Positions 47,472 through 61,380 of a stretch of 64,000 bases of DNA are shown piece by piece (positions within the stretch are counted from its first letter, which is position 1; each line of letters opens with the position of its first letter). The position numbers were made by a program, and so were the translations under genes. Source of the stretch: Antedon mediterranea (Eukaryota; Echinodermata; Crinoidea; Comatulida; Antedonidae); NCBI RefSeq assembly GCF_964355755.1, contig NC_092673.1, positions 20,775,001 to 20,839,000 on the forward strand. Reading direction: 5' to 3'. Under the pieces are notes generated by a model that was not told the DNA's origin, did not search any database, and worked only from the letters and a program-made list of their open reading frames with translations.

Positions 47472-50400
47472 CTATACAACATCTTGAGCGCAATTAGACC
47501 CTTCCCCCACTGTTACTCGATGCGTCTGTTTTCGTTGTCTTGCGCCTCCCATGTCACGCGTGTCAATTTTTTTATGTTTCATTTGTATTAATGCACTTGC
47601 AAGGACTAAACGTGTCTGACCATACGGTACTTCGCAATTATCCGGAAGAGGAATTTGCATAAATAACGATGCCACTGCAGCTTTCTGTTCCGAACATGGT
47701 TCGTAAGCTATTACATTTGGGTACGACTGTTGACAAAAACAAAATAAACATTATACGTGTAGGAACATTTCTTAATATTCACTATTCTAGGTCAGATATT
47801 TTATTCAAATTGTATATTATTTTTAGGAGGGCATTTATTCAAGGCATGCGTTTATACAGTGAAGGCATTCCAAATGATGTTCTATGGGGGAAGGGGGAGG
47901 GTTTTGTTTATTCAAAGCAGGTTTTAAGGTTTTAATTCGAATAAATATTTATTTATTTAGATAAATTTTGAGTTTGAATAGTCAATGGTCACAGGACGTT
48001 AGTGGTTCCAGATTGGTCTGAAACTAAAGTCACTTAGATAAATAATAAAAGATAAAAGATAAATCACATTACCTTTTTGCCGGACGGAAGAAGATCTGGT
48101 GGCCTATTACGTTCAAGTTCAACATTTATTGACGCAACCGGCCTGCTGGCCATCATGCGGAGTTCCACTACACGACGCTGATAAGAAACAATACAGGACT
48201 TCAGTAATGATTTCATTAATACATTCAATATATAATTATATAAACATAATACTTTGGTTTTGGGAACTGCTGAAAAATATATTATTTGCCAATAACTTGT
48301 TTTTGTTTAAGTTTATCATTATTTTATTCATACAAATATTTTTTCTCTTTTTGTTTTGTTTGTTTATGGATGTACTATCCAAAATATTGAAAATTAATAA
48401 ATAAATACCAATACTTTATGTTACTATTCATCTGACTAAATTGTTAAATTTTCATAAATATTTTATAATATACTATGGTAACGGTTATTAATTAATAATA
48501 TAATATTATTAAATATAATGTTCATACACAAACTATGGTTCGTGGAATTTAAACTTAAAATTTGATAATTATTAATTCATAAAACACTGTAATATAAATT
48601 GCAAATAAAAAGTAGGAAAGTTTCACAATGCATATTGGCTTCATGCATACAGTATTTAAATTTATATATTTGCTTTGTATTGTCAAATAGCAAATGACTC
48701 GCCATATACAGAATAAGAGAATAAATTTAAGTTGCTAAACTTCTCATTAGAATTACTGCAGTAGCAATTTTTGGAAAAATCTTGGTATCAACCGATAACC
48801 AGGGCTTGAACCAGGACTATAATTTCACCAAGGCAAGGCAACCAAGCTAGTGTGCAACCAGGGTCATTACAGGTCACTACATACCAGGGCAGCTCCCAGT
48901 ACTTGATAGGGTCTGTTTTATTATTTTCAGTTTTTTAACTATCTGAATAGGATATTTAGTATAAATATTATCAAGCCATACTCATGCATGTAAACTGTTA
49001 TAGTAGTAATTAAAAATAGTGTATTGTGTAATTATTAATATGTAAAGTAATACAACAATAGTATATTAGTTGTGGTGCAGTGAAGATTAACAAATGAAAT
49101 CAAACAAATCTGTGTGACGTCTATGAAGAAGAAGCCCCATCACCTCTATTGTCATTTAAAAACAAGAAAAAAATAGCGTAAATTAAAAGCAAGAAAAAGA
49201 TAACAAGAAGAAAATGTCCATCACCTCTAGTGTAATTTTAAAAAAGAATAAGATATAATATATATACTGTATGACTGTTAAAGCCGATGTTTGTATTTTT
49301 TGGTTATTTTTAGGTTGCCACTCCTAAACTGTAAAACAATCTTCCTAATTTAATTCAATCGAAGATGTCAACACCCTTTTAAAATCTCATCTTTTCAATC
49401 TGTTTTCTCTCCCATCTCAATTTTTATTTCAAGCGCTTTTGGAAAATCTGCTGATAGGTAAAAGCGCTATATAAATTTGACATAATTAACACAAATATGT
49501 GTACATACATTTAAACTATAACATAAATACTATCCACACATAATTTTCAATTTCATTTGGAACCAATTGCAGGCTGTCTTCAAAACATATTTGCATGCTC
49601 ACAAACGTGATACAGACATAGGTATTTAATTTTGATTGTTCAACTGACCAAAGTCTTCAAATAATTAAATACATGTTGCCCTGGTTGTTTAATGGCCAGG
49701 AATCATAAATTACATTTTAATTGATTTTATTAATAATTAGGGTTTGTGTATTTTATCGATTTAATAGAATTCAAGATATGATTTAGTTTAATTTCTAATA
49801 CTGTATCAATAAATTTTATATATGAATATTTATTATTTAATTTCAAAATGTGGAAGTGGAGAGAGGCACATTATGTCAACAAATAATTGTTGGTCCTCTC
49901 CGGGGTCCTCTCTCCCTCACAGTTGTCATATAATGCTTTGTATTTCTTTTCTTTTTTATTGTGTGTTCTGTATATGTTTTATATGGACAGTTTGTCCGAA
50001 ATAAAGTTGAATTGAATTGAATAGTTAATGTTGTAACTTTGTATTTAAGCCATTTTCCAAATAGATTCGATCCAAGATTTTGGTCAGATTTCTTGGTTAT
50101 TCCTCTTTACTTACCCGTCTCTGTTTTATCGAGTCAATCTTCTCTTTGATTTTGAAGGTGACCACAAAGATGAGTAGAAAGAGGAAAAAGCAAGAGATGA
50201 ACGCGACGAAGAACTCTAAAATGTTCAGATGGACAAACTGATAGACAGTCACCTAAAAAAAGCGAAGCAGAAAAGAGTGCTATATGTTAGTTCATGCAAA
50301 AATAAAACATGCTAGGTCGGGCACGCATTCTAGGAGTGGAAAGGGCCAGCTTGCGTTAGACTGGGCTAGCCTTGTTTACTTACCTGCACCCAAATTCGGC

Positions 50401-53400
50401 TATAGATTAGACATTTGATTTTCCAACCGCCCAAAAACATGATGAAGGTAATAAGAAAGGTGATAAGGAACTGCAAAATGATATTCCACATCCCGTATGG
50501 CCGTAACACAACCTGTGAGAAGACAGTGTTCAGTCGGCGGCATTCTTTTGTTTTTTGCAGGGAGGAGGGACCGACCACTTTCCACCCCGTGTTAGAGTTA
50601 GTGAGGGTAGTGAAGAATAGGGTTAAGTGCTGAGAACCTAAGAAAAGCTTAAAATGCATCTGAAATAGAGAAGAAACTGTTAACAAATTCTTAAGGTTAA
50701 TTTAGCATTGTGAAAAGACAAACCAAGTCACTCGGTCAACATTCCAAGGTCTTCCGTGACCTCTGACCTTACCTGTCTAAGCTGCCGCGCCTCCCATAAG
50801 TCCCTGATTTTAAGGACAGAGAGGAAAAAGAGTAGCGATATCACAAAACAACAAAACGAAGCGCTTAAGAACACCATGATATTAAGGTCAGTGCCCTGGA
50901 TTGTAGTGACCTGATTTTGAGAAAAAAATACAACATAATCGTGCCTTGCATTAGTGTGTGCTTGGGTAAGCAGGTATCAGCCGACCTTACCTGTCGAAGT
51001 CTATACCTATAGACAAACTGACGTACTCGCCAACCGACAGTCATCATGAACAGCATTAGAATCAGACTGCTCACAAATATAAGCACAATTTCAAGAATGA
51101 TACGCAAAAAATCGTTGTGGTGTTTCAGTGTAACCTGCATGCAGAAAACAAGCATGTGACAACAGGAATTAACAGAAGCAGAAACACCGAGAAATTTGTC
51201 ACAGCCAACGGATACTATGTGAGAGTAGTTCAGTGCAATTCTCTATCCATTGATCTACATTTTTTTACCTGTGACGCTATATGTAATTTCAATAGGGTAC
51301 ATAATCCAAGCAAACCAGTAAAGAAAAGTATAAGAGCGAACACTGCACTCATAAAGTACATAATATAGGCTGGAAGTGAAGAACTGGGAATGTACTCATC
51401 TGTAAATTGCATCTGAAATCATGAAAACTAAATAAATGAGTCTCCCTTTATGAGATTTTTCTCTTAAACTTTAACCTACAGTATTCGATATCTGTTCAGT
51501 ATTTAAAACTGTGTAAAAAGTAATGATTAATGGATAGTGAATGTTCACTATTAACTTATAGAATGTTTCCAGGTGTCACTCTGAAAAGGAATATTTAACA
51601 TTATAGCACACTGTCTACACTATCAAACTTAAGTTTGACAAAAGAAGTGTAAGGTGCCCAAATATGGTAGTGATATGATGTCATCATTTCTATTTATTGG
51701 CACATCACATAAAGTTTGATAATGCAGACAGAGCTTTAGTTAGCTCGGTTTACTACACTGTATAGGGGATAAAATGTCATTTTCACTACAAGAAAAAACA
51801 TAATGGCAGTGTTGGCTTAACAGCGTTAAAAAGTATTTTTGTAGTTGGTTTTATTGTAGACATTCAGGACATTTTGTTTGCACTATGTGTCCCAGAATCA
51901 ATGGTGCCCCTAACTGTGCCAAATCCAGAAACTGGCATGGTTGCATGAGGTTTCACAAAGTTTGTGAGGATACCCACATTTTATACTCTACTAATTCTTA
52001 TTGAAACAGACAAAAATTCCCTATAATTGGAGGAATTAAACAACATATCGTGACATTAAAACATAAAAATAATTAAACTATTTCTGTCCTAGATAGTACT
52101 TTGCTCTAATCTAATGCTTGGTTCCCACTAGCGACACAACATAACGCAACCTACGCAACTTAAGAAAATGCCCTTTCCATAATCGTGTTTGCCTCGCCTC
52201 TGTGAAATCGAACCTTTTTTCCCACTTGTGATTATGTAACATAGCACTTTGCATTGATATGTTGTTGTGTTGTGTCCTAGTGGGAACCAAGCTTTAGTGC
52301 CAACATGAACAATTCAATTATCCCAATACATAGAAAAAGATACATAAAAAAAATATATACAATACATACCTCAAATGAGTAAGGTGTCGTGAAGTTATAT
52401 AGATATATATAAAATGTAGTATTGGCATCTTCAGTAAAGTCAAATTCATTGTGAGAGAACTTAGTACTGTACTTTGACCGGACATGCATGTCCGTTACTA
52501 GCGCTGTCTCTGACATTAAAAAATCTTAAAGAAAAAGATGAAGACTTGTAAATTCACATGAAAATAATTTTAAAATGCTTTGTTGTGGCAACTAAATGTA
52601 AACGTTTCCCAACATGCAACCTGCAAGCTCCGCTAACTTTGTAAACTTTGTGTGCAAGAATTACAAAAAATTATGTTTTTAATTAAGCCAAACAATAAGA
52701 ATTGTTCATCGCAATATGCTATTTATCACCCAATATGTAAGTTTACACATGCCTAGCTAGGCCTAGTCTCTATGCCCACTTGCATTCCATCCATACGGTA
52801 ATTTGTTTTTATGTGAGCGGTGTATGTTGCGTGTGCGACACATGCGTTTTGTGTTCTACACTTTCCATCGAATCGAAATCAAAACAAACAAATACGTTAA
52901 TACTGTTTGCTGAACTACGCTGAGTAAAATGTTGACGTCATTCGTTAAAGTCAACGTTTACGTGCGAAAGCTCTTTAATTACAGGCAGACAGTATAAAAC
53001 TGTACTCTACCCTGTAGCAATGATTTGAATACACAGAATAGCTTACTTGTTGAATAAGTGATGTTCATATAAACTGAAGTGGGTACTTCCAGGATAAAGT
53101 CAATATCTCTATTATTTTTACTTGGTTCCACTAACATGTTTATTTTTGTATAGTAGCTATCCTCTGCTTTTGATAGATTGAAATTATACCGAAAATTCAT
53201 CTCGAGTTCATCTAGTCAAAAAAAAATTACATTTAACATTATATATAATATTGGTGACATACTTAAGTGTACTTTATACAGTGCTAAATAATTCAGGTAC
53301 AGCCAGAAGAAACATCTGACCAATTAACTTAGCTCCATGACGCAATGCTACAAAAATATTTGTATAAACATTTTAGGCTACATTCATAACGTAATATTAA

Positions 53401-56400
53401 ATTACACGAAACAAAGTGGTGTTGTTAGGCAGGTTCATGGAATGTACCATTATCTGACAGGGGTGTTTCATAAATTTTTATATATTCGAGTTGTAGCTCT
53501 CTTCTCACAGAGAATATGCCAATGTCAGTTTATCCAGGTAAGCTAGGCACGAAATAGACTAGAGAAGCTAGGAAGTGTGTGCCAGTTTGTTGGAACAAGG
53601 AACAAGTTTACTTACAGTAACAGGTTCCACCGTCAGATGGGTCACCTCTATATTTTGCTTTAGTATCACATCTGAGTGTAAATAAGATAATACAACAATA
53701 ACTCACAATTGTTTTAATTTAGACACCTGTACTAAAGGGACACCTGTACTAAGGGGACACTTGTACTAAGGGGACACCTGTACTAAAGGGACACCTGTAC
53801 TAAGGGGACACCAGTACTAAGGGGACACCTATACTAAGGGGACACCTGTACTAAGGGGACACCAGTACTAAGGGGACACCTAAAGCAAGGTGACACCTGT
53901 ACTAAGGGGACACCAGTACTAAGGGGACACCTGTACTAAGGGGACACCTGTACTAAGGGGACACCTAAAGCAAGGTGACACCAAGGTGACACCTGTACTA
54001 AGGGGACACCAGTACTAAGGGGACACCAGTACTAAGGGGACACCTATAGCAAGGGGACACCTGTACTAAGGGGATACCAGTACTAAGGGGACACCTGTAC
54101 TAAGGGGACACCAGTACTAAGGGGACACCTAAAGCAAGGTGACACCTGTACTAAGGGGACACCAGTACTAAGGGGACATCTATAGCAAAGGGACACCAGT
54201 ACTAAGGGGACACCTATAGCAAGGGGACACCTGTACTAAGGGGACACCTATAGCAAGGGGACACCTGTACTAAGGGGACACCTGTACTAAGGGGACACCT
54301 ATAGCAAGGGGACACCTGTACTAAGGGGACACCTGTACTAAGGGGACACCTATAGCAAGGGGACACCTGTACTAAGGGGACACCTATAGCAAGGTGACAC
54401 CTGTACTAAGGGGACACCAGTACTAAGGGGACACCTATAGCAAGGGGACACCAGTACTAAGGGGACACCTATAGCAAGGGGACACCTGTACTAAGGGGAC
54501 ACCTGTACTAAGGGGACAGCTGTACTAAGGGGACACCTGTACTAAGGGGACACCTATAGAAAGGGGACACCTGTACTAAGGGGACACCTGTACTAATGGG
54601 ACAGCTGTACAAATGGGACACCTGTACTAAAGGGGCTCTTGTGAAACAAATGAAAAGAAATAAATGTGTCAACACTATGGCCAATACTTAAAGAGGATAC
54701 CCGTAGGTGTTACAATGATTCTTTTTTTTCATGAACACAATAAAGGCGAGCATGAAATTTGGTTTCCTGATGCTTAAATACACAATGTTGTATATTTACA
54801 GCCAGACAAAGGTTAACATATTTACGGGAAAAAAACGTGTAAAACTGCCAAAATTTATTTATTTTCTATTCAAATATATAAGACTATTTAAAATGTACTT
54901 ACATGTCACACATATCTCCAATAATCCCTTTTGTTGTACAATAGCAAGCACCGGAGTAAATGTCACAGACTTCAGCATTCTCATTGCATACACATGGTTC
55001 ACATTGGCCACCATTCTCTGGATTGCCAAAGAACCCACTAGTGCACATTTCACAATGTTCACCTGCAACATTTTGAAAATGTTTTGTAATAAAAAATAAA
55101 TACAAAGAATGTATATAAAGCTCTGTCTACACTATCAAACTAGTTTGACAAAAGAAAGTGCGAATTGCCTAAATATGGTAGTGATATGTTTAAATATGGT
55201 AGTAATATGACATCATTGTGTCGTGGGCACATCTCATTTTTGTCACATAAAGTTTGATAGTGTAGACTCAGCTTAAGGAATTAAGGGTAAAACTACCAAG
55301 TGTAAGAATTGGTATATTCACAGTAATACCAAAGATCCAATTATCAAATTATTCTTAAGATCATTATCTATTTTCAGTTTAAAAAAAAAAATTAGTTTCT
55401 ATTCCCCCTGTAAACAACCCCTCTCCCCACCCCCCCCCCCCACCCCATTACTATCTAACTAACTAAATTTGATTTGGTGGATTGGACAACATGTTTATAC
55501 TATACCTGTTGTATTATCTGTACAGTTAAGACATACACTCTTGTTTACACACTCACTGTGCCCATTACACTGACAAGCTACAAGAAAATAAAACATTTGT
55601 TTTAAATGCCAGAGACTTTTAATTTGAAGTAACTTTGCATCAGGTATATAATTGCGTCAGAGTCGGGCAAACAGCTGACCATTTATGACAAAGACTTGTT
55701 ATCAAGTGATTCAATAAGTATTCATTATTCCAAAGAACAAATAATAAATTTAGAGACTTTTAATTTGAAGTAACGTGCATCAGGGAGCTATTATATAATT
55801 GGGCAAACATTATTTCAAAGAACAAATAATAGATTTATAACAACTTACCAGGACAACCAACAAAGTTCCATGAATTTGAAGTACACATTGAGGTGTTGAG
55901 AAGCATACTTGTACCAGAGAAATCAAGTGGTCCTGTAAAGCCTCCCTCCATGCACATACCGGTACCGGTACCAGAACCATCATCACACCAACCGCATGAT
56001 GGACTCATCTGACAATCGGTACATGATTGGTATCCTGAACAAGTTGGAGCTGTAATAAGATTTTTCTATGGTGATTTTTTTTCTTTTTGGCAATAACACA
56101 TTGACAACAAACCTTTTTACGATTTAAGCCTATAAAAGAACAATACTAGAGATGGAAGAGATGGGATGGAAGAGAATGGGATGGAAGTGATTGGGATGGC
56201 AGAGAATGGGATGGCAGAGAATGGGATGGAAGCGATTGTGATGGAAGAGATTGGATGGAAGAATTTGGATGGAAGAGATGGGATAGATGAGATAGGATGG
56301 AAGAATTGATAAAACAAAATACCATGTCTTAGCAAGTACTTACGTGGACATGCTCCTTTGATGTTATGCCATTCCATACATAAACCGTATGGGAATGATG

Positions 56401-59400: not shown

Positions 59401-61380
59401 TGACGACACAAATTAAATGAAAATGAATAAATAATAATTTCTCAATGCTTGTATGTACTTACCATCCCCTAGCATCAACATCATAAGAATATAGCTCAGT
59501 TGAGATGTGTTGGTCAGTAGAACTTTTATATCCTCCGTGTAAGTACACTTTCCGTCTTTTTGGATCATACACTGATGAATGACCGTATGAGCCATATATG
59601 AAAGCACCATCCGTTTTATGACGACTCCAAGTATTATTTGCTTTTTAAAAAAGAAAAAAAATTAAATAAAGTATAGTAAAACAATAATGCATATTATATT
59701 ACTGTTATATGTTTATGGCTGGCATCTGTCACAAATGAAAATATCAATAGTTGAATGAAACTAAGCCAGGACTGTTTTAATCACCTTTATTGGTCCTATC
59801 ATTGATCAAGGGCATCTCTTGTCTAGTGCTAGACTTGCCCCAAGTCTGTATTATCTTTTTTTTTATTTATTTGTTTTTATTTCGACCGCGATTTTTGTCT
59901 GAAAATACAGACTTGTGAAACACGTATAGAAATCGATTTGCAGACCGCAAACATACGATAAGAATGACGTAGGTTATCATACCGTATTTGGCTATATGGG
60001 GCGGGCGGTATGTAAATATGGATTTCGAATCAACCAATGATCATTTTGTTTCAAAATGAAAGAGATCGAGTACGTAGGCCTACCAGTGCTTAATGTACGA
60101 TCGAGACTGTTGAAATATAAAATAGTAATGCCAAGTTGTTTTGTTTATTAATTGTTTAGTCCTTGGCCTAGGCCCTAGGCCTCTTTCGTAGGTCCTACTC
60201 AACTCGCACGTATGACCTGCCAAATAAAACGCCAATGAAGTAGGCCTACATACCACCGGCACACAACAGGGCTACACCACCACACAGAACAGGACAGGGT
60301 CTGGGTGGGAATTAAATCAAAATTATCTCCGCGTAATAAATGATCCATTCAATGTTTGATTTGCGGAGAAGCTAGCCTATCATATATCAAGACGAGTTTT
60401 CATGTTTCAAAGATCCCATCAAATGTTTACCAGACTACTAGGCATATAAAATAATTTCTAGCCTTCAGAACTTTCATAAATCATTTATGAAAATGTACCC
60501 AAGTACACATTGTCTAAACGTAACATAGCGCATGCGCATCATCTTATTTGTTGAGTCTTTGAAATTCTTAAATATGAATATTTAAACAGTGTACGAGAGA
60601 GTAGCCAATCGCATGCAGCTGAAACTAGTCAACCGGATAATCGTATGCACCAAGAATTCTTGGTGTCAAACCACGTGACTTGTGCGTGTTTCCCCAGACG
60701 GAGTATCCAAAATCAAGTAGTATACGTATGAAACGCCATATGTGCCAAAATATTTATCTTTTAACTAATATTAAGACAAAACTCCGTCTGGAACCCAGAC
60801 TAGTCTAGTGCCTACATTGACAAGAGAGGAAAGGCATGGGCCAATATGTCTATATATATATATATATAGATACTAGATGCAGGGGCTGCATAAGAGTCAG
60901 CAGTGCTGGTTTAAAATGCCTAATAGGATCCCATATACAGCACCTAGTATTCTCAGATGGTCTCCCATCCAAGCTCTAACCAGGCTCAACGTTGCTTAAC
61001 TTCGATGTTTCAACGTGGTAAAGCCGTATTGAATTACTGTTTTATATATCTTAATCATTTTACATTTACTTAATTTGTTATAGAAACATTTTTTTTTGTA
61101 ATGCCAAGGTTGATATTTAATGTGTATGGTCACATAAACTACAAATAATAAAAAACTCACTAAAATCATATTCTTGAACTATGTTTGTATATCCGTATGA
61201 TGGGTTAAAACCAAAAAATACAAGCATTTTGTCATCCACTACATGAGCTGTGTGTCCTTCTACAGCTAAAGCCTCAGGTGTGGTTAGGTTTGCCTCCCAC
61301 CTGCCATTGAACGTGTCAAATGCCCATAGCTCATTCATTGTTTCACCATTAACATCACCTCCAAACATGTATATAAAGCC
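47472..61380 (-). CDS. ATRN: Attractin-like transmembrane protein, 3' two thirds
   Basis: Exons (minus): 61161-61380, 59463-59640, 58661-58815, 58094-58246, 57214-57467, 56694-56814, 56344-56523, 55849-56049, 55506-55577, 54903-55062, 53616-53671, 53047-53211, 52370-52524, one of five transmembrane exons, 48073-48177, 47472-47726. With one transmembrane exon they give 855 aa in frame. Order: kelch repeats (ELWAFDTF..MLVFFGF, SYGHSSVYD, SAVLIDDIMYVFGGNMHNDT, HGGFNGQMFNDILLYEL), PSI repeats, laminin-type EGFs (ACQCNGHSEC, GFFGNPENGGQCEPC), a membrane-proximal beta region, membrane span, then cytosolic MMASRPVASINVEL and YEPCSEQKAAVASLF, both hallmarks of ATRN/ATRNL1. Attractins are type I membrane proteins linked in vertebrates to melanocortin signalling with MGRN1. 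The 5' kelch, CUB and EGF exons lie right of the window. The C-type lectin domain is absent: exons 56694-56814 and 56344-56523 join directly. Confidence 0.93.
47824..47952. mobile_element. MITE family C relic
   Basis: GGGCATTTATTCAAGGCATG .. TTAATTCGAATAAATATTT; degenerate copy in the last attractin intron. Confidence 0.55.
48780..48900 (-). mobile_element. tRNA-derived SINE fragment
   Basis: On the minus strand TAGCTTGGTTGCCTTGCCTT and TCCTGGTTCAAGCCCTGG resemble box A and box B of a SINE head. In the intron between TM5 and exon 48073-48177. Confidence 0.45.
49351..49490 (+). mobile_element. L2 LINE 3'-end fragment
   Basis: A frame resembling S-I-E-D-V-N-T-LLKSHLFNL is followed by AAAAGCGCTATATAAATTTG, the L2-type terminus. 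Truncated and decayed. Confidence 0.55.
49880..50022 (+). mobile_element. Retroelement 3' tail, (GAATT)n
   Basis: CCGAAATAAAGTTGAATTGA with repeated AATTG units, a common LINE/SINE end. It lies about 95 bp downstream of exon TM5. Confidence 0.5.
50115..50252 (-). CDS. ATRN: Attractin alternative transmembrane exon TM5 (canonical-like)
   Basis: 138 nt, phase 0-0, acceptor TTTTTTTAG, donor CGG|GTAAGT. It encodes VTVYQFVHLNILEFFVAF, span ISCFFLFLLIFVV and TFKIKEKIDSIKQRR. Of the five it most resembles the vertebrate attractin span as I recall it (FF..FFSCFLSLLL..WKIK), so it is probably the ancestral exon. Confidence 0.85.
50384..50512 (-). CDS. ATRN: Attractin alternative transmembrane exon TM4
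   Basis: 129 nt, phase 0-0, acceptor TTCTCACAG, donor CAG|GTAAGT. It encodes VVLRPYGMWNIILQF, span LITFLITFIMFLGGW and KIKCLIYSRIWVQ. Shortest juxtamembrane part of the set. Confidence 0.82.
50773..50910 (-). CDS. ATRN: Attractin alternative transmembrane exon TM3
   Basis: 138 nt, phase 0-0, acceptor AATCAG, donor CAG|GTAAGG. It encodes VTTIQGTDLNIMVFLSA, span SFCCFVISLLFFLSVL, then KIRDLWEARQLRQ. The intron from TM2 is only 80 nt. Confidence 0.82.
50991..51134 (-). CDS. ATRN: Attractin alternative transmembrane exon TM2
   Basis: 144 nt, phase 0-0, acceptor GCATGCAG, donor CAG|GTAAGG. It encodes VTLKHHNDFLRIILEIV, a span containing VLIFVSSLILMLFMMTVGW, and a strongly basic cytosolic edge RVRQFVYRYRLRQ, unlike the other variants. 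Confidence 0.82.
51269..51412 (-). CDS. ATRN: Attractin alternative transmembrane exon TM1
   Basis: 144 nt, phase 0-0, bounded by TTTCAG and CAG|GTAAAA. It encodes 48 residues: an extracellular lead (MQFTDEYIPSSSLPA), a hydrophobic span (MYFMSAVFALILFFTGLLGL) and KLHIASQ. This is the most divergent of the five and the first encountered in transcription. Confidence 0.8.
51606..51737. mobile_element. Palindromic MITE family B copy 6
   Basis: CACTGTCTACACTATCAAAC to AATGCAGACAGAGCTTTAG, in the intron before TM1. Confidence 0.75.
52116..52295. mobile_element. MITE family E copy in attractin intron
   Basis: GCTTGGTTCCCACTAGCGAC and GTCCTAGTGGGAACCAAGC are inverted ends. It lies 75 bp from exon 52370-52524. 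Confidence 0.8.
53722..54636. repeat. 17-bp minisatellite, about 53 units, attractin intron
   Basis: Head-to-tail units GGACACCTGTACTAAGG with variants CCAGTACTAAGG, CCTATAGCAAGG and CCTAAAGCAAGGT. Variant order suggests higher-order duplication. It fills most of the intron between exons 54903-55062 and 53616-53671. Confidence 0.9.
55119..55274. mobile_element. Palindromic MITE family B copy 7
   Basis: AGCTCTGTCTACACTATCAA to TTGATAGTGTAGACTCAGCT, 57 bp upstream of exon 54903-55062. Confidence 0.8.
56148..56306. repeat. GGATGGAAGAGAT purine-rich minisatellite
   Basis: About ten imperfect units of GGATGGAAGAGAATG or GGATGGCAGAGAATG in the 294-nt intron between exons 56344-56523 and 55849-56049. 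The minus-strand transcript is a pyrimidine-rich tract. Confidence 0.8.
57603..58055. repeat. About 85-bp repeats containing GGGGACAC, attractin intron
   Basis: Roughly four units share ACTATGGCCAACCCCTATTC, AGGGGACACCCCATATT and GTGAAACATACTAAAGGCAG. The flank of the 17-bp array (GTGTCAACACTATGGCCAAT at about 54665) matches, so the two arrays derive from one repeat family. Confidence 0.75.
58257..58615 (-). mobile_element. Truncated DNA transposon abutting an attractin exon
   Basis: Inverted, truncated copy of the 63220-63858 element: shared CAATTTGTATTAACGGA, GCCTAGCTAGGCTAGG and AAATGTACATTTAAGACAAG. Its broken end (ACCGGGTTTCC) is 11 bp from the exon starting at 58246. Confidence 0.75.
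60692..60812. mobile_element. Dispersed repeat / MITE with AGACGGAGT ends
   Basis: CCCCAGACGGAGTATCC .. AACTCCGTCTGGAACCC around the GTATGAAACGCCATATGTGC core seen at 8752. In an attractin intron. Confidence 0.65.
60936..61027 (-). pseudogene. 5S rRNA-derived sequence (pseudogene or SINE3-type head)
   Basis: The minus strand reads ACGGCTTTACCACGTTGAAA, then GAAGTTAAGCAACGTTGAGC, CTGGTTAGAGCTTGGATGGG and AGACCATCTGAGAATACTAG-GTGCTGTA. It matches 5S rRNA from its 5' end to its 3' end except for a deletion of about 20 nt in the loop B-C region and scattered substitutions. The 3' flank is not a T run. Too degraded to make 5S RNA; a 5S pseudogene or the head of a 5S-derived SINE. Confidence 0.75.

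Follow-up and report, generated by a model that had tools for sequence, protein, structure and literature searches.

In the window (the whole 64,000-nucleotide, or 64-kb, stretch of Antedon mediterranea DNA analysed here), the gene bearing the five-exon array is an attractin, read on the minus strand, whose 5' part lies outside the window at C4:20840209-20844446. The joined protein contains CUB (PF00431), EGF, an attractin propeller, PSI repeats, laminin-type EGF and the attractin GBD stem. When this protein was scanned, both the attractin-type beta-propeller (PF24981; 297.9 bits) and the stem domain GBD_ATRN (PF24972; 70.5 bits) scored above cut-off. On inspection of the open frames between the PSI exons, we identified no obvious frame for a C-type lectin domain (CTLD, compare vertebrate attractin). 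The stem match stops no more than three residues from the cassette border, at the end of the constitutive ectodomain exon, and the exons TM1 to TM5 are positioned between this exon and the constitutive cytosolic exon (Table 1). The latter carries a MASRP-type MGRN1 motif, RRVVELRMMASRPVA, after the anchor; the MASRP motif is required for MGRN1 association in fly and mammal (PMC8254101, PMC12752501). The tail of the cassette gene gave a weak match to MEGF8 structures.

The lengths, phases, AG/GT borders and coordinates first claimed for the five exons were all confirmed on the sequence. From the stem exon through TM1-TM5 to the cytosolic exon, the introns measure 957, 134, 80, 260, 131 and 1,937 nt. 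The first-pass annotation had also described a hydrophobic span followed by a basic edge in each exon: all five do encode one hydrophobic span, whereas the basic edge of TM1 amounts to no more than one lysine and one histidine. The C-side net charge of TM2-TM5 is +4 to +7. Upstream of TM4, a strong in-frame acceptor at 50659 (minus strand, score 5.8) is a possible alternative 3' splice site that would add 49 codons of open frame (MHFKLF...TVFSQ) to this exon. The introns of the gene also contain a tandem repeat array (53800-54700) with several open frames and a CYRCPLSTGVPLVQVSP-like translation, a 5S rRNA-like match (60932-61031, minus strand, 49 bits) and, in the intron preceding TM1, inverted arms (52111-52131 and 52277-52297; 95% complementary, 145 nt between them) that resemble a small transposon.

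Table 1. Exons of the attractin anchor region and candidate paired RNA elements, in window coordinates.
Feature	Position	Strand	Remarks
Constitutive ectodomain exon, end of attractin stem (GBD_ATRN)	52370..52524	-	exits phase 0, FTTPYSFE/gtatgt
TM1, 144 nt, phase 0-0, MQFTDEYIPSSSLPAYIMYFMSAVFALILFFTGLLGLCTLLKLHIASQ	51269..51412	-	AG/GT borders; homology to TM2-TM5 lacks support
TM2, 144 nt, phase 0-0, VTLKHHNDFLRIILEIVLIFVSSLILMLFMMTVGWRVRQFVYRYRLRQ	50991..51134	-	AG/GT borders
TM3, 138 nt, phase 0-0, VTTIQGTDLNIMVFLSASFCCFVISLLFFLSVLKIRDLWEARQLRQ	50773..50910	-	AG/GT borders; closest relative in genome is TM5
TM4, 129 nt, phase 0-0, VVLRPYGMWNIILQFLITFLITFIMFLGGWKIKCLIYSRIWVQ	50384..50512	-	AG/GT borders
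TM5, 138 nt, phase 0-0, canonical attractin/MEGF8-type anchor VTVYQFVHLNILEFFVAFISCFFLFLLIFVVTFKIKEKIDSIKQRR	50115..50252	-	AG/GT borders
Constitutive cytosolic exon RRVVELRMMASRPVASINVELERNRPPDLLPSGKK, MASRP motif (MGRN1 association)	48073..48177	-	enters phase 0
Last coding exon, attractin-type tail SYPNVIAYEPCSEQKAAVASLF...CAQDVV-stop	47472..47726	-	attractin-type resemblance judged by eye
TM3 3' splice site, partner of 48870-48891	50892..50913	-	pairing 20/22
Intron element, 20/22 bases complementary to TM3 3' splice site	48870..48891	-	candidate splicing-control element

The array exceeds chance expectation. Both strands of the window were scanned for open exons of 105-172 nt and phase 0-0 using generic splice-site matrices at lax cut-offs, which returned 11 candidates (8 on the minus strand and 3 on the plus strand). 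A strong hydrophobic span was present in six of these, namely TM1-TM5 and one truncation of TM3, and at lax splice cut-offs no further cassette exon was found in 48178-52369. The four strongest donors within 48000-52600 are those of TM2-TM5 (7.5-8.8, against a 99th percentile of 5.1 over all GTs of the window). TM2 and TM4 have strong splice sites at both ends (6.1/8.4 and 6.9/8.8, respectively), and those of TM1 are weaker (1.9/3.0). The chance of five frames this long staying open is about 3e-8 given the local composition, a figure that assumes random sequence and serves as a guide only.

Comparison of the exons with each other supports TM2, TM3, TM4 and TM5 being diverged duplicates. Against shuffles that preserve the hydropathy layout, pairwise p values were 5e-4 for TM3-TM5, 5e-3 for TM2-TM5 and TM2-TM4, and 0.02 for TM4-TM5, and the summed score of TM2-TM5 was 282, compared with a mean of 112 and a maximum of 198 in 1000 such shuffles. 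TM1 gave p 0.19 against the other four exons, its best single pair being with TM3 (p 0.047). We also re-implemented a test of the WebScipio type (PMC3228551), in which similarity has to reach at least 15% of the self-score. Like the exon clusters to which this test is applied, the array has exons of similar length (129-144 nt), phase 0-0 and the same splice-site type (AG/GT). The similarity level was reached among TM2, TM3 and TM5 (TM2-TM3 20-21%, TM2-TM5 21-22%, TM3-TM5 31%) and by TM4 with TM2 only (23-24%; TM4-TM5 12%), whereas TM1 fell below it (4-10%). In a MAFFT alignment of TM2-TM5 all gaps were confined to the extracellular part. The earlier statement that the exons share length thus applies to these four, whose span and cytosolic part align gap-free and whose length differences lie on the extracellular side, but not to TM1, for which homology is not demonstrable.

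In searches of the 354-Mb genome, TM3 matched itself and then TM5 as its sole other match (E 1.5), and TM2 matched only itself, so no recent copies of either were found elsewhere. TM5 together with the tail matched human MEGF8 in PDB entries 9qqs, 9qty and 9qs6 (lowest E value 4.5e-13), which identifies TM5 as the canonical attractin/MEGF8 anchor on sequence grounds. A profile of TM2-TM4 built without TM5 did not reach MEGF8 in the PDB, and the family link of TM2 and TM4 therefore runs via TM5 and TM3. Exon duplication, which the first-pass annotation had proposed for the whole array, is accordingly upheld by the shuffle tests, alignment and genome search for TM2-TM5 and not for TM1. Judged by these comparisons, the exon-duplication cassette for the attractin membrane anchor is real, with four well-supported members and TM1 as a possible fifth.

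The duplicates also appear to have diverged under constraint. In TM2, TM3, TM4 and TM5 alike, the distance to the MASRP motif, counted from the residue at which the chain emerges from the span into the cytosol, is 21 residues, a spacing that recurs in human MEGF8 and in both MEGF8 genes of this genome; the corresponding measure for TM1 is 15. TM5 and MEGF8 share an FxSCFF signature that is partly kept in TM3 (CCF) and replaced in TM2 and TM4, so the membrane-facing surface differs between the exons. The constant spacing suggests that the MGRN1 geometry is kept and that this surface is what changes. Identity at first, second and third codon positions was 26, 29 and 15 of 46 for TM3/TM5 and 14, 30 and 11 of 46 for TM2/TM5. 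In both pairs the third position is lowest, as expected if constraint acted at the protein level; this minimum was absent in TM4/TM5 and TM1/TM2.

Competition between docking and selector RNA pairings is one known mechanism of mutual exclusion, although it is not required. In the last cassette intron we identified an element, unique in the genome, that could pair with the TM3 acceptor (Table 1). The pairing has a z of -6.1 against block shuffles, for a single sequence chosen after the fact and against a background of about 0.23 non-low-complexity pairs of this strength per 4.6 kb of window. No equivalent pairing was found at TM1, TM2, TM4 or TM5. The leading candidate for a docking site common to all the inner introns (49922) scored at shuffle level, with 23% of shuffles of its own bases as low, and folds locally; a common docking site across the cassette was thus not found.

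This sequence is best read as a mutually exclusive, one-of-several cassette by which the membrane anchor of an adapter of MGRN1, an E3 ligase, would be altered. We consider it probable that the duplicated exons normally enter the mRNA one at a time, with the stem and the MGRN1-docking tail fixed and the anchor surface swapped. The choice of a single anchor fits the phase 0-0 borders and the fact that each aligned exon (TM2-TM5) begins in the same way on the stem side and ends in basic residues on the cytosolic side; the original wording, one of five, was too strong because TM1 is a weaker exon and not demonstrably a duplicate. Each of the five lengths is divisible by three, so that the exons can be combined in any way without loss of frame and the frame does not enforce exclusivity: double inclusion would cause no frameshift and hence no removal by nonsense-mediated decay. 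The same property would permit all or several of the exons to be joined into a multi-span attractin, in which an odd number of spans, such as five, would leave the MASRP tail in the cytosol. We regard such a protein as very improbable, because several anchors together would place strongly basic loops (TM2-TM3 and TM4-TM5) outside, in conflict with the positive-inside rule. In addition, both attractins and MEGF8 span the membrane once (PMC12752501, PMC13161197), and exons that match a neighbour in length, frame and homology are seldom constitutive, making up only 0.56% of non-exclusive exons on the fly X chromosome (PMC3228551). A single exon per transcript would thus be argued from topology, from this statistic and from likeness to Dscam1 exon 17 (PMC8787164).

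Two other readings were considered. TM5, perhaps with TM3, could be the functional anchor and the remaining exons ageing, little-used duplicates; TM5 adjoins the tail and is the best family match, and TM1 combines weaker splice sites with undetectable homology. We consider this unlikely, as TM2 and TM4 retain strong sites at both ends, reading frames are still open despite deep divergence, the cytosolic spacing has suffered no indels, and conservation in TM2/TM5 and TM3/TM5 is lowest at the third codon position. The cassette could also double as a switch between membrane-bound and secreted protein, because skipping of all TM exons would join stem to tail in frame, both flanking exons being phase 0, and mammals do have a secreted attractin. 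This is the least probable of the alternatives: the sequence bears no sign of skipping, and the mammalian secreted form arises by a route other than the skipping of transmembrane exons.

Under the mutually exclusive reading, each mRNA would normally contain one TM exon between an invariant stem domain and an invariant tail that docks MGRN1. The exon chosen would determine the linker outside the membrane, the membrane helix itself and the 13 residues that open the cytosolic helix. With any of TM2-TM5, MASRP would lie 21 residues from the edge of the membrane and MGRN1 would be held at the same height. The variable would be the membrane-facing surface and the length of the span and, with them, probably sorting or the receptor substrates met as lateral partners. 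A cell could probably exchange the anchor in this way without altering the ectodomain or the tail that docks the ubiquitin ligase, and an effect of anchor choice on partners or trafficking is plausible. As a tentative and rather doubtful extension, four or five versions of the MGRN1 adapter with the same geometry might meet different lateral receptors, with anchor splicing picking the receptor to be degraded. The expression, mutual exclusion and functional consequence of the cassette are what we infer from its sequence.

The gene shares CUB, EGF, propeller, PSI, laminin-EGF and GBD stem with the MGRN1 adapters Attractin, ATRNL1 and MEGF8, as well as a single anchor, the MASRP motif and the attractin-type tail. 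Human proteins of the attractin family are described with one anchor (PMC12752501), whereas this attractin gene has five anchor exons. The genome also has an MGRN1-like gene on C1 and two MEGF8 genes on C8, in both of which a single uninterrupted open frame covers the stem, the anchor and the MASRP-like motif, so that an anchor swap is impossible in these genes. In the second MEGF8-like gene (C8:106138) the motif reads RRSRPFG instead of MASRPFG, and MGRN1 docking may be altered. Three homologues of MOSMO (Atthog) were seen at C11:20591775-20596307 and C1:19727205-19728010; the C1 homologue is split over exons, and the two C11 copies, which lie on opposite strands about 4 kb from each other, are full-length undivided frames. 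Searches for COX1 and for GH6, a tunicate marker, gave no match, though no control responded in the GH6 search.

How transmembrane adapters confer receptor specificity on MGRN1 is described as an open question in PMC12752501. If nature provides several anchors for one adapter that is the same in all other respects, with constant spacing to the ligase-docking motif, the contribution of the membrane helix could be isolated. The first-pass annotation knew of no such system in attractins, and our search agreed: no report of a swappable-anchor cassette in attractin was found in the open-licence literature, and nor was use of this many choices in an E3-ligase adapter. The kind of cassette itself is known from exon 17 of Drosophila Dscam1, where two mutually exclusive transmembrane exons occur and the choice is reported to affect subcellular localisation (PMC8787164). 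Both systems have tandem alternative exons for the whole anchor of a single-pass surface protein, with ectodomain and tail fixed. They differ in that Dscam1 is an immunoglobulin-superfamily adhesion protein and attractin an E3-ligase adapter, and in that exclusivity is cDNA-based in Dscam1 and read from sequence in the attractin array. With four or five alternatives, the choice of transmembrane exons in the attractin array would exceed the pair at Dscam1 exon 17.
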